A DNA stretch of 64,000 nucleotides. Origin: Streptomyces morookaense (GTDB lineage: Bacteria > Actinomycetota > Actinomycetes > Streptomycetales > Streptomycetaceae). Numbering within the stretch: the first letter of the stretch is position 1; every line of letters starts with the position of its first letter. Positions 9,009-13,185 of the stretch are shown here, in pieces. The DNA is taken from positions 186,001 through 250,000 of the forward strand of contig NZ_JABBXF010000010.1 of assembly GCF_013030945.1 (NCBI RefSeq), given 5' to 3'. A program made the position numbers and the translations under genes. A model generated the notes under the pieces. It made no database searches. It was not told where the DNA came from and was given only the letters and a program-made list of their open reading frames with translations.

Positions 9009-9056
9009 CCTGCACAACTGGATGCCTGCACAACTGGATGCCTGCACAACTGGATG
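9009..9056. repeat. Three tandem 16-bp repeats in a short intergenic gap
   Basis: CCTGCACAACTGGATG is repeated three times head to tail without mismatch in the 178-bp gap between two convergent genes. Nothing else is recognisable in the gap. Confidence 0.95.
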
Positions 9057-9147: not shown

Positions 9148-10476
9148 TCAGGGAGCGGTCGAGGTCTCCGCCGGGGCGGCCGGTGCCGTGACCGGTGCGG
9201 GGCGCCGGCGCAGGGCCGCGAACGAGTAGAGGCCGGCAGCCACCGTGGAGACTCCGCCCGCCAGGAAGATGACGTCGATCCGGCCGAAGTCCAGGCCCGC
9301 CCAGTGCCCGTGGAATCCGTCCAGCACCGTGCCCGCGATCACGCCGGAGAGGGCGACGGAGACCAGCGAGGCGAGTTGGGAGATCGGGTCGAAGACCGCC
9401 ATGACCCGGCCCAGATGGTCGCGGGGCGTCTCCTGGAGGATCAGCGGGGAGCATGCCGTGTTCAGCGCGCCCAGCGCCAGGCCGAAAAGGACGGAGACGA
9501 CCAGGGCGGCCGGGATGTCGGTGGTCCGTGAGTAGGCGATCAACAGGAAACCGAAGAGCAGCAGGCTGCCCCGGAAGACCCGGGTGTGCCCGGCTCGGTC
9601 GCCCAGACGTCCGCTGAGCAGGGCCCCGCCGATCGTCCCGGCGCCGAAGACGGCTTCGAGCGTCCCGTACCAGCCCGGCGAGGCGTGCAGGTTCTCCGGG
9701 ACGAAATACACCTCCAGCGTGTTCAGCGCCCCCGTTCCCACAGCGGTGAGCACGGCTGCGGTCAGAATGACCCGGAGTGTGCTGCTTCCGGTCAACAGCC
9801 TTACCGCTCCAAGGAATTCGCGTCGCTCCGGGAGCCGTCCCCGTGGTGCCGTCCCGCCGTTTTCCATGTCGCGGTCCGGCGCGGCGTATCGCACCCGTCG
9901 GATCGCCAGGTACGACACCAGGAACGAGAGCGTGTCGAAGGCGAGCATCCAGCGCACTCCGAGCGTGAACACCAGCGGCGCGGCCGCCATCGGCCCGATG
10001 ATCGTGGCCAGGGCCGCGGCGGTCTGCGTATAGCCGAACGCGCGGCCGTGCTGCTCGGGTGGCACCACATCGCTGATCGCGACGAACCGCGACAGGCGGA
10101 AGAAGGGGGCCGCCGCATAGATCAGCGCTTCGGCGACGCCGACGCACAGCAGCAGCGCCAGAGGCGGAACGTATCCGGAGGGCAGGAACGCCAGCAGGGT
10201 CACCAGGCCGATCACGGCAGCCCGGAAGAGCTCGGAGCGCAGCATGGTCTGCTGCTTGTCCCACCGGTCGACCAGGGCGCCGGCGACCGGTGCGACCAGG
10301 ATGGGAACGACGGAGACGGCCACCGTCAGCGCGGCTGTGACACTCGGCGCATACGGCTTGCCGCGCAGGAGGTCGGTGCTCGCCCACAGCAGCACGGCGG
10401 TGCCGCAGGCGTAGTCGCCGACCAGCGAGAGGGCTTGCCCGAACCAGAGGAGCGTGAAGTTCTTGTTGATCAACAT
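9148..10476 (-). CDS. MFS transporter next to the radical SAM peptide maturase
   Basis: The 442-residue protein has about 12 hydrophobic segments. It begins NKNFTLLWFGQALSLVGDYA and has the MFS loop VDRWDKQQTMLRSELFRA (near 70-87), as in MFS_3/enterobactin-exporter-like permeases. ATG 10476 overlaps the maturase stop by 7 nt (ATGTTGA), so the two are translationally coupled. In peptide-modifying loci such a transporter commonly exports the product or protects the producer. No peptidase domain is fused, so leader removal would need another protein. Confidence 0.88.
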   Translation of the reverse strand: MLINKNFTLLWFGQALSLVGDYACGTAVLLWASTDLLRGKPYAPSVTAALTVAVSVVPILVAPVAGALVDRWDKQQTMLRSELFRAAVIGLVTLLAFLPSGYVPPLALLLCVGVAEALIYAAAPFFRLSRFVAISDVVPPEQHGRAFGYTQTAAALATIIGPMAAAPLVFTLGVRWMLAFDTLSFLVSYLAIRRVRYAAPDRDMENGGTAPRGRLPERREFLGAVRLLTGSSTLRVILTAAVLTAVGTGALNTLEVYFVPENLHASPGWYGTLEAVFGAGTIGGALLSGRLGDRAGHTRVFRGSLLLFGFLLIAYSRTTDIPAALVVSVLFGLALGALNTACSPLILQETPRDHLGRVMAVFDPISQLASLVSVALSGVIAGTVLDGFHGHWAGLDFGRIDVIFLAGGVSTVAAGLYSFAALRRRPAPVTAPAAPAETSTAP

Positions 10477-11882
10477 GGCGCGGGCGTGAGCCCGTTCATC
10501 TCGGCCACGAGATCGAAGCGCTCCTGGAGCGTGAACTTGTAGGGCGGGCAGGGCGTGTTGCCCTCGCGCCATTGCTTCGGACAGGCGCCGCCGCAGACCG
10601 GGAAGAAGTAGCAGGTATGGCATGGTGTCTCGCCTGCGGCGACGGCATCGTGCCAGTCGTCGAAGGGGCCGAGCGGGCGTATCGCATGCACGGGAATCGT
10701 CTCGATCGATCCCAGCCCGCCGGTTGCCTCCTGTTGCGGCACCAGCGGATATTCCGAGCAGGAGAACATCGCCCCGCTGCTGCTGTGGATCTCCACCGAC
10801 TGCGAGACGGCAGCGCACAGAACGTGCTCCGGTTCTGTCGGCAGTGCCACGAAATGCAGTCCGAGTTCGTGCATGTGGCGCATCCACTCGACTTCCCGCT
10901 GCGCGTAGTGACGCCGGTCGAGCTCTATACGCGATACATCGTTGCCCCAGGAGTAGACCGGGGCGAGGTTGAAGAAGACCCGGCCGTCGGCGAAGCCGAG
11001 TTCCGCCATGGTGTCCAGGTACTCGGTCACCCAATCCGCATTGGCCACATCGATGTTGGTGCGCAGAACGAAGCCCACATCGGCGAGGGCGTCGTCCTGC
11101 AGGGCCTCCAGCAGAAGGCGGGTGATCCGGTCGAACGACCTGCGTCCGTCGCGCAGGGGCCGGTGGGCGTCATGGATGCGGGCCGGGCCGTCCAAGGTGA
11201 TGTCGTATCGGGTGACATGGCATTCCTGTCGCAGGACGCGCAGCTTCTCACGTGTGAGGAGGGTGCCGTTGGTGACCATGCGCGAGACGTATCCGACACC
11301 TCTGTCCTGTGCTGCCGCGGTGAAACGGGCGCTCAGGTCCAGGATCATCGGGTAGCCGATCATCGGTTCCGCGCCGAACCAGCTCACCGTCACCGTGCGT
11401 GTGGTCTTCCTCTCGATCCCCGCCAGCACGCGGCGGGCGACGGCATCACGGTGCCGCCCGGAGAGCCGGCCACGCGTGTGCTGCTGGCCGCAGTAGGAGC
11501 AGCCCATGTTGCAGTACGTCGTGGGCAGCAGCACATACCGCGGGCTGCCGAGGTCGGCACTGGCTGCACGCTGACGGTCCAGAACGGTGTCCAGCTCCCC
11601 CTGCCCGCCCGTGACGACGGGGACGACGGCCTCGATCTCGCGGAGCCCGTCGAGCAGTTCGGGGCCGATCCCCTCCAGTGTTCCCCGCGCCAGCCGCCGG
11701 CCGTCCTCCTCGGGCACGGCGACCATCGATCCGGTGCGCGTCGCGTACACCATGCACACGCGCTGGTGGCCGGCGTGGAGATAGGCCCGGTCGCTGACCC
11801 GGACGTAGTCGCTCACCCGCTCCTGCGGGAGGGGTGAGACGGGATCGGTGCGCTCGGTGTCCTTTGCAGGCATGACTGACAT
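10470..11882 (-). CDS. Radical SAM/SPASM peptide maturase
   Basis: The 470-residue protein uses ATG 11882, 4 nt after GGGGAG. Residues about 20-90 look like the N-terminal recognition region of RiPP maturases (RVSDRAYLHAGHQRVCMVY). TTYCNMGCSYC near 122 is the CX3CX2C site for the SAM-cleaving 4Fe-4S cluster. Near the C-terminus are CX13GX4C (LCAAVSQS to FSC), then CX2CX5CX3C (CHTCYFFPVCGGAC) and a further Cys nine residues on, an almost textbook SPASM domain holding two auxiliary clusters. Such enzymes modify short ribosomal peptides. The gene lies between a 28-codon candidate precursor and an MFS gene. I cannot place it in a named subfamily. Confidence 0.9.
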   Translation of the reverse strand: MSVMPAKDTERTDPVSPLPQERVSDYVRVSDRAYLHAGHQRVCMVYATRTGSMVAVPEEDGRRLARGTLEGIGPELLDGLREIEAVVPVVTGGQGELDTVLDRQRAASADLGSPRYVLLPTTYCNMGCSYCGQQHTRGRLSGRHRDAVARRVLAGIERKTTRTVTVSWFGAEPMIGYPMILDLSARFTAAAQDRGVGYVSRMVTNGTLLTREKLRVLRQECHVTRYDITLDGPARIHDAHRPLRDGRRSFDRITRLLLEALQDDALADVGFVLRTNIDVANADWVTEYLDTMAELGFADGRVFFNLAPVYSWGNDVSRIELDRRHYAQREVEWMRHMHELGLHFVALPTEPEHVLCAAVSQSVEIHSSSGAMFSCSEYPLVPQQEATGGLGSIETIPVHAIRPLGPFDDWHDAVAAGETPCHTCYFFPVCGGACPKQWREGNTPCPPYKFTLQERFDLVAEMNGLTPAPC

Positions 11883-11904
11883 GGTTCTCCCCGCCGACTT
11901 GGGT

Positions 11905-11954
11905 GCCGTGTGACGGCCCCGCACGGTGCACAGGATTCGGGGCCGTCACACGGC
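11905..11954 (-). terminator. 16-bp perfect hairpin between precursor and maturase genes
   Basis: GCCGTGTGACGGCCCC and its exact complement are separated by an 18-nt loop. The hairpin lies after the precursor stop (11976) and before the maturase start (11882). There is no U-tract. It may act as a partial terminator or RNA-stabilising stem giving more precursor than enzyme, a common layout in RiPP operons. Confidence 0.75.
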
Positions 11955-11975
11955 GGATCGAGCTGGATGGGCGAA

Positions 11976-12062
11976 TCAACAACCGTTTCCGCAGACGCCG
12001 TTCTTCTCCGGCGGCAGAGGCATGACGCCGGTTGCAGGAGTGGCCGTCGACAACTTGATCAC
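11976..12062 (-). CDS. Candidate 28-residue precursor peptide for the SPASM maturase
   Basis: A GTG start lies 6 nt after a clean GAGGGG ribosome site and opens 28 codons ending in PLPPEKNGVCGNGC. It precedes the maturase gene on the same strand by 93 nt. The frame remains open further upstream (to 12182), but no comparable ribosome site is seen there. The N-terminal half (IKLSTATPATG) would act as leader. The C-terminal core holds Lys, Asn, Val and two Cys in CGNGC, all residues that SPASM enzymes can crosslink. It is too short for routine gene calling. The precursor role is inferred from position, size and ribosome site. Confidence 0.68.
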   Translation of the reverse strand: MIKLSTATPATGVMPLPPEKNGVCGNGC

Positions 12063-12227
12063 AGGATTCCCCTCACTCTTCGACGTTCGGGTCGCCCCAT
12101 CGTGGCGAGGCGGCGTCCTGCGCGCCAGCTGTTCGACGCAGTGCCTAATAGTCGCGAAACCGTCCTGGACAGTCGCACCCACGGCGCTATCGTGAGTCCG
12201 GGTTCATCAGGCCAACGGGGGGTCACG

Positions 12228-13185
12228 GTGCTGGAACTTCACTTCGGTGTGGCCGATATGGCGAGAATCCGGTTCGGCATCTCGCCCCTGGATCACGTAC
12301 TCAGCGCCGTGGCACGGGCGGAGCACCCCTACTTTCGGCGCCTCGGTCAACCGTGAACTCTGGTGGCGCCAGGAGAGACGGCATGTGCCACTCCGGGCCG
12401 CCCCGGTGTTCGAGCTGGTCAACGCCGGATTCGAAGGCGTGCCGGACGTCCTCGGGGAGGCCGCCGGCCGGCGGCTGACCGACGAGCTCGACTCCATCCT
12501 CGCCGTTCCCGACGCCGCCTTCGTCGCGGAGTCGTGCGGCGCGGACACGCGAGAGCTGCGACGGTTCGCCGACGGCGCCTGGGCGCTGTTCCGGGCCTGC
12601 ATCGCCCCGCACTGGCCCGACATCCAGCGTCACCTGCAGGCCGACATCGCACACCGCGCACGCACTGCGGCCGAAGCCGGTGTCGGCACCGTCCTGAACC
12701 AGCTGCATCCGCAGTGCGTCTGGCACGAAGAGGGCATCCTCCGATACGCCGGACCCAAGTGGGACGGCACCTTCGGCCTGGGCGGGCGCGGGCTCGCACT
12801 CCGCCCCAACTTCTTCCTCCAGAGCGGAGTCATGGTGATTCCTGCGGAGCACCGTGCGACGGTGCTGGGCTACCCGATCGCCGCGCGGCCGTACGGTTAC
12901 GCCGCGGCCCGGCAGGCGGACGGACTGGCCTCGCTGATCGGCTCCGCGCGGGCCCGGGCACTCCGTGCGATCGGCCAGGGTTCCTGCACGACCGGGCAGT
13001 TGGCGGACCGCCTCCGCATCACCTCTCCGTCAGCCTCGTCCCACGCCGCCACCTTGCGCGCGGCGGGCGTGATCACGACCGAGCGCGAAGGGCGCCAGGT
13101 CCGGCACGCCCTCACGCCACTTGGCCATGACCTGCTGCACGGCGGCGGTATCCCTGCGGGGCGTCAGAGGATCGCGCGCCGGTAG
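12228..13185 (+). pseudogene. ArsR-family regulator split by a +1 frameshift
   Basis: GTG 12228 opens LELHFGVADMARIRFGISPLDHVLSAV, the usual start of long actinobacterial ArsR regulators with a DUF5937-type N-terminal domain. After EHPYF the frame runs into a stop at 12356. Removing one T from the TTT at 12333-12335 restores GASVNRELWWRQERRHVPLR and the rest of a protein of about 319 residues. The C-terminal winged helix (about 260-310) reads ALRAIGQGSCTTGQLADRLRITSPSASSHAATLRAAG. It faces away from the peptide locus and would be its natural regulator. Either a real inactivating mutation or a sequencing error. Confidence 0.78.

Follow-up and report, generated by a model that had tools for sequence, protein, structure and literature searches.

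Which peptide does the radical S-adenosylmethionine (SAM)/SPASM maturase encoded on contig NZ_JABBXF010000010.1 of Streptomyces morookaense act upon, and what would it make of it? The enzyme lies within positions 186,001 to 250,000 of the contig (the window, meaning the whole 64,000-nucleotide stretch that was analyzed, numbered from its first letter), and an initial annotation placed it in a compact locus for a ribosomally synthesized and posttranslationally modified peptide (RiPP), with a short, overlooked precursor gene. We found that the order of peptide, maturase, and putative exporter is kept in 5/5 close loci, that of the window included, in agreement with such a locus, and that the conserved C terminus of the precursor contains the Asn-x-x-Cys (N-x-x-C) motif of streptococcal NxxC peptides. 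With a probability of roughly two in three, we read the locus as an actinobacterial NxxC-type thioether RiPP cassette of three genes, in which Cys24 of the precursor would form a ring with Asn21 and an adjoining Cys28-Gly25 ring possibly forms as well. The parts of the locus are as follows.

11976 to 12062, minus strand: precursor gene, GTG start, 28 residues, VIKLSTATPATGVMPLPPEKNGVCGNGC (frame translation; matching peptides in relatives L006 to L009)
12069 to 12074, minus strand: ribosome-binding site GAGGGG of the precursor gene, with a 6-nt spacer before the GTG at 12062 (read from the sequence)
11905 to 11954, minus strand: perfect 17-bp hairpin with a 16-nt loop, between the precursor and maturase genes (inverted-repeat search; folding z-score)
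10470 to 11882, minus strand: radical SAM/SPASM maturase, 470 residues, ATG start at 11882 (profile matches, alignment, and predicted structure)
9148 to 10476, minus strand: major facilitator superfamily (MFS) transporter, putative exporter, 442 residues (Pfam and NCBIfam profile matches; kept in relatives)

The precursor peptide

Comparison with related loci indicates that the 28-residue peptide is real; its start and GAGGGG site are those first annotated. The DNA pattern for N-G-x-C-G-x-G-C-stop occurs only once in the 7.47-Mb genome, at this locus, and four close relatives carry the same peptide end; a chance frame is therefore rejected. These relatives are the four closest of six found in a contig scan for related maturases: L008, L006, and L007, all from Streptomyces, and L009, from Saccharothrix, whose maturases are approximately 90, 80, 78, and 62% identical to that of the window, respectively. 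Each encodes a 24- to 29-residue peptide upstream of the maturase (MLKMSTATPTVGPIPPKQPSRNGVCGAGC in L008, MIKLTTSNSSSYVGEKNGVCGNGC in L006, MIKLTTSNSSSYVGEKNGVCGHGC in L007, and MVLLSTTNRNPDFGGNGPKNGTCGGGC in L009) that ends in [KR]-N-G-[VT]-C-G-x-G-C, and the columns K/R, N, G, V/T, C, G, x, G, and C are kept in 5/5 peptides of the window clade. The end had been described as CGNGC. Its conservation holds in all five peptides; however, the exact string is found in only two of them (the window and L006), the remaining three having CGHGC, CGAGC, and CGGGC, and the conserved end is NG[VT]CGxGC. In the nine codons that encode [KR]NG[VT]CGxGC, comparison of the window with L006, L007, L008, and L009 shows 2, 2, 3, and 3 silent and 0, 1, 2, and 2 changing codons, respectively, for totals of 10 silent and 5 changing codons over the four comparisons.

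A longer frame of 68 residues, starting at 12182, was considered as the precursor and is disfavored, since the starts of the orthologues align with the GTG at 12062. The 68-residue frame had no match in Pfam or NCBIfam, and the 28-residue peptide matched no NCBIfam model at E values up to 1. Within the 28-residue peptide, the leader would comprise approximately residues 1 to 20 and the core would run from N21 to C28, after Lys20.

The maturase

As had been claimed for it, the maturase keeps all the cluster cysteine motifs, namely, CNMGCSYC (CX3CX2C), C-X13-G-X4-C, and CX2CX5CX3C plus one further Cys. Residues C124, C128, C131, C356, C375, C421, C424, C430, C434, and C445 show no variation across the 39 sequences aligned, the window's included.

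None of the best 25 of 50 NCBIfam matches reached its curated cutoff. The best match was TIGR04463, which covered most of the protein and scored 173.5 bits (173.4 bits in the genome scan); since the cutoff is 525 bits, membership was rejected. Membership was likewise rejected for SCIFF maturases (TIGR03974; 45.5 versus 425 bits, with a precursor that has two cysteines, not six), PapB (NF047865; 75.8 versus 340 bits), and FxsB (TIGR04269; 48.3 versus 370 bits), and the view that the locus is neither SCIFF nor FxSxx is thus upheld. The subcutoff matches, among those listed, include the thioether formers PapB and SCIFF maturases and also cyclophane formers.

CteB is a SPASM enzyme that forms thioethers, and its N-terminal part is what we take to be a RiPP recognition element (RRE). 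An AlphaFold2 model of the window maturase (predicted local distance difference test score, 92.2) had CteB as its top-ranked solved chain (Z, 27.1; root mean square deviation, 4.0; 382 residues aligned, model residues 24 to 461 on chain residues 1 to 448). In this model, residues from approximately 20 to 95 form a CteB-like N-terminal region, a putative RRE.

The Asn-x-x-Cys motif across the maturase family

Relatives of the maturase were found in 17/392 genomes in the search at genus level, 13/394 at family level, 21/341 in another family, 5/391 at order level, and 5/394 at class level; E-value limits differ between these searches and the genome draws overlap. Of the 17 genus-level relatives, 8 have at least 40% identity, the window's own included. 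In the maturase tree, the window and L006 to L009 form one clade (support, 100/99) with L061 as its sister (98/93). L034 falls in the same clade as L048, L049, and L068 to L070.

Small frames upstream of homologous maturases had been set beforehand as the refuting test of the precursor proposal. The refuting condition fails, because the close maturases have a conserved peptide frame at the same place (4/4 relatives). In the wider family, one rule was applied to all loci: a frame of at least 18 residues within approximately 500 nt upstream, with N-x-x-C in its last 12 residues. Such a frame was present in 28/36 core loci (5/5 in the window clade and 23/31 in the others), compared with 81/4000 controls, which were 530-nt stretches drawn at random from the retrieved loci of more than 9 kb, with precursor regions left in. 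In the outgroup (13 loci, 27 to 32% identity), D-x-x-C was found in 10/13 loci versus 53/4000 controls and N-x-x-C in 1/13, while D-x-x-C occurred in 1/36 core loci, in a frame that did not resemble the rest. Because the core and outgroup lists were drawn from the maturase tree and many frames had already been seen, the scan was not blind. The counts omit L042 (inside L010), L060 (inside L008), L019 to L027 (nine partial same-genus matches, 29 to 35% identity), and plasmid hits H4 to H7; L012 to L018 and L002 to L005 are the same places as L028 to L034 and L035 to L038. L085, found after the count and examined apart, has NVLC.

In 27 of the 28 motif-bearing core loci the peptide ends exactly in Cys. 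The 19 distinct tails vary in the residues flanking the Asn; the Asn itself is present in 19/19 by construction, because the tails were chosen for N-x-x-C. Judged from these sequences, what the family precursors appear to have in common is an Asn and a Cys separated by two variable residues, on leaders of at least four types that look unrelated by eye. The short, T-rich type is that of the window clade, L033, and L067. Another is that of the aroma-sacti-leader loci (L010, L011, L028 to L032, L043 to L047, L062 to L066, and L085), whose maturases are approximately 47 to 50% identical to that of the window and whose precursors also end in N-x-x-C; they differ in their length of approximately 60 to 70 residues, their leader, and their single Cys or CLC end. 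The L029 peptide, the only one of its type scanned, contains the NCBIfam aroma-sacti domain (70 bits), and resemblance to it in the other loci was judged by eye. The same domain (NF045560; threshold, 30 bits) was sought in the window peptide and gave no match at E values up to 1. L039, on a Streptomyces linear plasmid, has an NGNC precursor with an acidic leader.

In the outgroup, Asp-x-x-Cys is apparently the counterpart of Asn-x-x-Cys. L040, L058, and L059 lack D-x-x-C (3/13), and the counted L053 frame is unlike the others. L040 is an annotated TIGR04463 member that adjoins a CefA precursor with a Cys at every fifth position, unlike the window.

Other features of these loci were also recorded. 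At approximately 7735 to 12523 of L039, the precursor and maturase genes are followed by genes for a methyltransferase, a SagB/ThcOx dehydrogenase, and an MFS protein. The L050 and L051 precursors have a signal-peptide-like start and two N-x-x-C-C units, NVSCC and NFGCC. L044 and L047 each have the precursor in two tandem copies, all ending in NNCLC. Outgroup loci L035 to L038, L052, and L054 to L057 have short acidic peptides beside the maturase that end in IDFGC, IDFNC, or IDIFC.

Gene order, hairpin, and neighboring genes

On the minus strand, the precursor gene is followed by a 93-nt gap, the maturase gene, and the MFS gene; the maturase stop and MFS start share 7 nt (10470 to 10476), the coupling that the initial annotation had noted. 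An MFS gene lies directly downstream of the maturase gene in 5/5 close loci, and the other four proteins are 41, 70, 71, and 83% identical to that of the window.

The hairpin in the gap, absent from the initial annotation, is predicted to be unusually stable (region 11900 to 11960; z-score, -4.99; 0/200 shuffles as stable). The corresponding gaps of L008 (z-score, -3.72), L009 (-2.82), L006 (-1.57), and L007 (-1.04) also have predicted stems. No T-run follows the hairpin in the sequence, and the terminator scan, which allowed loops of 3 to 8 nt only, did not extend to a 16-nt loop. The hairpin is likely an attenuator or RNA-stability element favoring the precursor.

Neighboring genes in the window were called with a simple script based on GC content at third codon positions (GC3). 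One of them is a possible regulator.

12247 to 13185, plus strand: divergent MarR/ArsR-type helix-turn-helix (HTH) protein, possible regulator (similarity to DUF5937 below the cutoff)

Of the window neighbors, it alone has a counterpart in the regions compared from the four relatives, found only in L008. Two other matches correspond to antisense frames of the MFS gene; in addition, an L008 gene has a match in L009 at 32% identity. Because the neighbors of the window mostly have no counterparts beside the relatives, the trio seems to move as a self-contained unit. At 9009 to 9056, downstream of the MFS gene, the 16-nt unit CATCCAGTTGTGCAGG occurs three times as direct repeats on the minus strand.

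Discussion

The closest precedent for the window precursor is the NxxcA/NxxcB pair, reportedly due to Caruso et al. in 2019. Two reviews describe an NxxC subfamily, in Streptococcus orisratti and others, defined by an Asn-x-x-Cys motif and of uncharacterized function, and a single bridge in S. orisratti NxxcA from the Cys23 sulfur to the Asn20 beta-carbon (PMC8326336, PMC13361665). In those accounts, as in the window, an Asn-x-x-Cys precursor accompanies a radical SAM/SPASM enzyme, and the i/i+3 spacing is the same (Asn20-Cys23 there, Asn21-Cys24 here). The window has two features of NxxC membership, the motif in its core and an adjacent SPASM maturase with the auxiliary-cluster Cys sets. It differs from NxxcA/NxxcB in being actinobacterial and in having an MFS gene in the cassette, a second conserved Gly-x-Gly-Cys unit, and a MarR/DUF5937-type neighbor; the streptococcal subfamilies are linked to Rgg/SHP. 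The ranthipeptide maturases CteB/SCIFF and PapB/freyrasin are also SPASM enzymes, and they make Cys thioethers, as the window maturase probably does; however, the SCIFF and PapB models score the window maturase far below the cutoffs. SCIFF has six cysteines, and the order in PapA is Cys before Asp.

The locus had been proposed to encode a new class of crosslinked peptide. It is correct that the precursor matches no library model; however, "new class" is an overstatement, because the core holds the described streptococcal NxxC motif and related actinobacterial loci share it. The CGxGC end is found only in the five-member clade and is therefore better seen as a form of NxxC-type thioether peptides. 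The motif is thus known, and the chemistry is probably known too. In the open-licence literature searched, we have seen no description of the second conserved unit, of so small a core, or of a maturase tree divided between Asn and Asp; the same literature yielded no paper on TIGR04463, the aroma-sacti wording, or the core-peptide strings, and no mention of CGNGC among the radical SAM papers listed, although work published elsewhere may exist. The sections consulted of PMC9062424 and PMC8172795 describe no such actinobacterial family.

From the gene order, sequence conservation, and cluster motifs observed, together with the predictions for the fold and the hairpin, we infer the following course. 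The short leader of the precursor would be bound by the CteB-like N-terminal region of the maturase. The 5'-deoxyadenosyl radical would take a hydrogen from Asn21, to which the Cys24 sulfur would then bond; the beta-carbon is the likeliest site, by analogy with NxxcA. The outcome would be a four-residue thioether ring and a mass change of -2.016 Da. For the core NGVCGNGC, the calculated [M+H]+ values are 723.2549 without a ring, 721.2392 with one ring, and 719.2236 with two; for the full peptide, with the GTG start translated as Met, they are 2786.3707, 2784.3551, and 2782.3394. Gly25-x-x-Cys28, with the same i/i+3 spacing, may close too, at the Gly alpha-carbon; such a second ring is possible because Cys28 follows in the same register, G25 is invariant, and streptosactin has paired four-residue rings. 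Alternatively, Cys28 may stay free. Cleavage probably follows the conserved basic residue (Lys20), as suggested by the basic residue that precedes N21 in 5/5 peptides, and the MFS protein would then export the product. The hairpin probably raises expression of the precursor over that of the maturase.

Several observations weigh against this interpretation. No frame with N-x-x-C was found in the scanned stretch of 8/36 core loci. The L071 peptide ends in KVNVC, the only plausible frame of L034, ending in NFGC, lies past an MFS gene and on the other strand, and the NSGC of Rhizobium L041 is internal rather than terminal. L048, L049, L068, L069, and L070 (38 to 42% identity) have no plausible precursor; wider stretches (L072 to L076), scanned on both strands for N/D-x-x-C ends and for common small frames that carry a Cys close to their end, gave none for this clade, and an L075 frame ending in SDRLCE was judged spurious. 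The predicted fold leaves the chemistry unsettled, because an anaerobic sulfatase maturase, no thioether former, ties with CteB (Z, 26.5, within 1 Z, aligned only from residue 112), and the match of the N-terminal region comes from few rows, CteB and TigE. The hairpin scores in L006 and L007 are weak, and no protease gene was identified. Finally, kinship with NxxC was judged by the precursor motif and the adjacent SPASM maturase.

SPASM enzymes perform many chemistries, and other explanations have to be weighed. A purely sactipeptide-type product, with Cys24 and/or Cys28 on alpha-carbons, such as those of the invariant glycines, and Asn21 kept for recognition, would suit the conservation of G22, G25, and G27 in 5/5 window-clade peptides. 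Both cysteines are spaced compatibly with two four-residue rings, and paired sactionine rings of this size occur in streptosactin (PMC13361665). However, an Asn three residues before the Cys is what distant relatives share while neighboring residues vary, and the Asp that occupies this place in the outgroup likewise carries a functional group adjacent to the beta-carbon; we regard this explanation as improbable. We give somewhat less credence again to another radical reaction, such as modification of a C-terminal Cys, epimerization, or formation of a carbon-carbon link; the cysteines would then be available for metal binding. The near-universal terminal Cys, a CX3C spacing that could bind metal, and a sulfatase maturase structurally as near as CteB are all points in its favor, but a C-terminal Cys is not required, because L061 ends in CG and L041 carries its motif internally, and the subcutoff matches include thioether formers, though cyclophane formers too.

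A last alternative, that the maturase acts elsewhere and the short frame either encodes a regulatory leader peptide or arose by chance, is very improbable. The frame is short and is followed by a strong hairpin, as with attenuator leaders, but silent differences outnumber changing ones in its nine conserved codons, its end is kept across Streptomyces and Saccharothrix, and the motif accompanies the maturase family despite differing leaders. An NxxC-type thioether cassette remains our preferred reading. A bolder form of it, which we offer only tentatively and think unlikely in full, is that of a hybrid ranthipeptide/sactipeptide, in which one enzyme would make two adjoining four-residue rings (N21-C24 at the Asn beta-carbon and G25-C28 at the Gly alpha-carbon) on an eight-residue product, and in which the wider family would have switched between Asn and Asp acceptors in step with phylogeny while leaders were freely exchanged.

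If the NxxC-type reading is true, Asn-x-x-Cys thioether peptides extend from streptococci to actinobacteria, on at least four leader types unrelated by eye. The maturase groups with Asn and with Asp as presumed acceptors, side by side, are a natural series on what decides the choice of acceptor, and the window version is simple to test, consisting of a 28-residue peptide, one enzyme, and one transporter. If it carried two thioether rings in contact, the eight-residue product would be an unusually compact scaffold.

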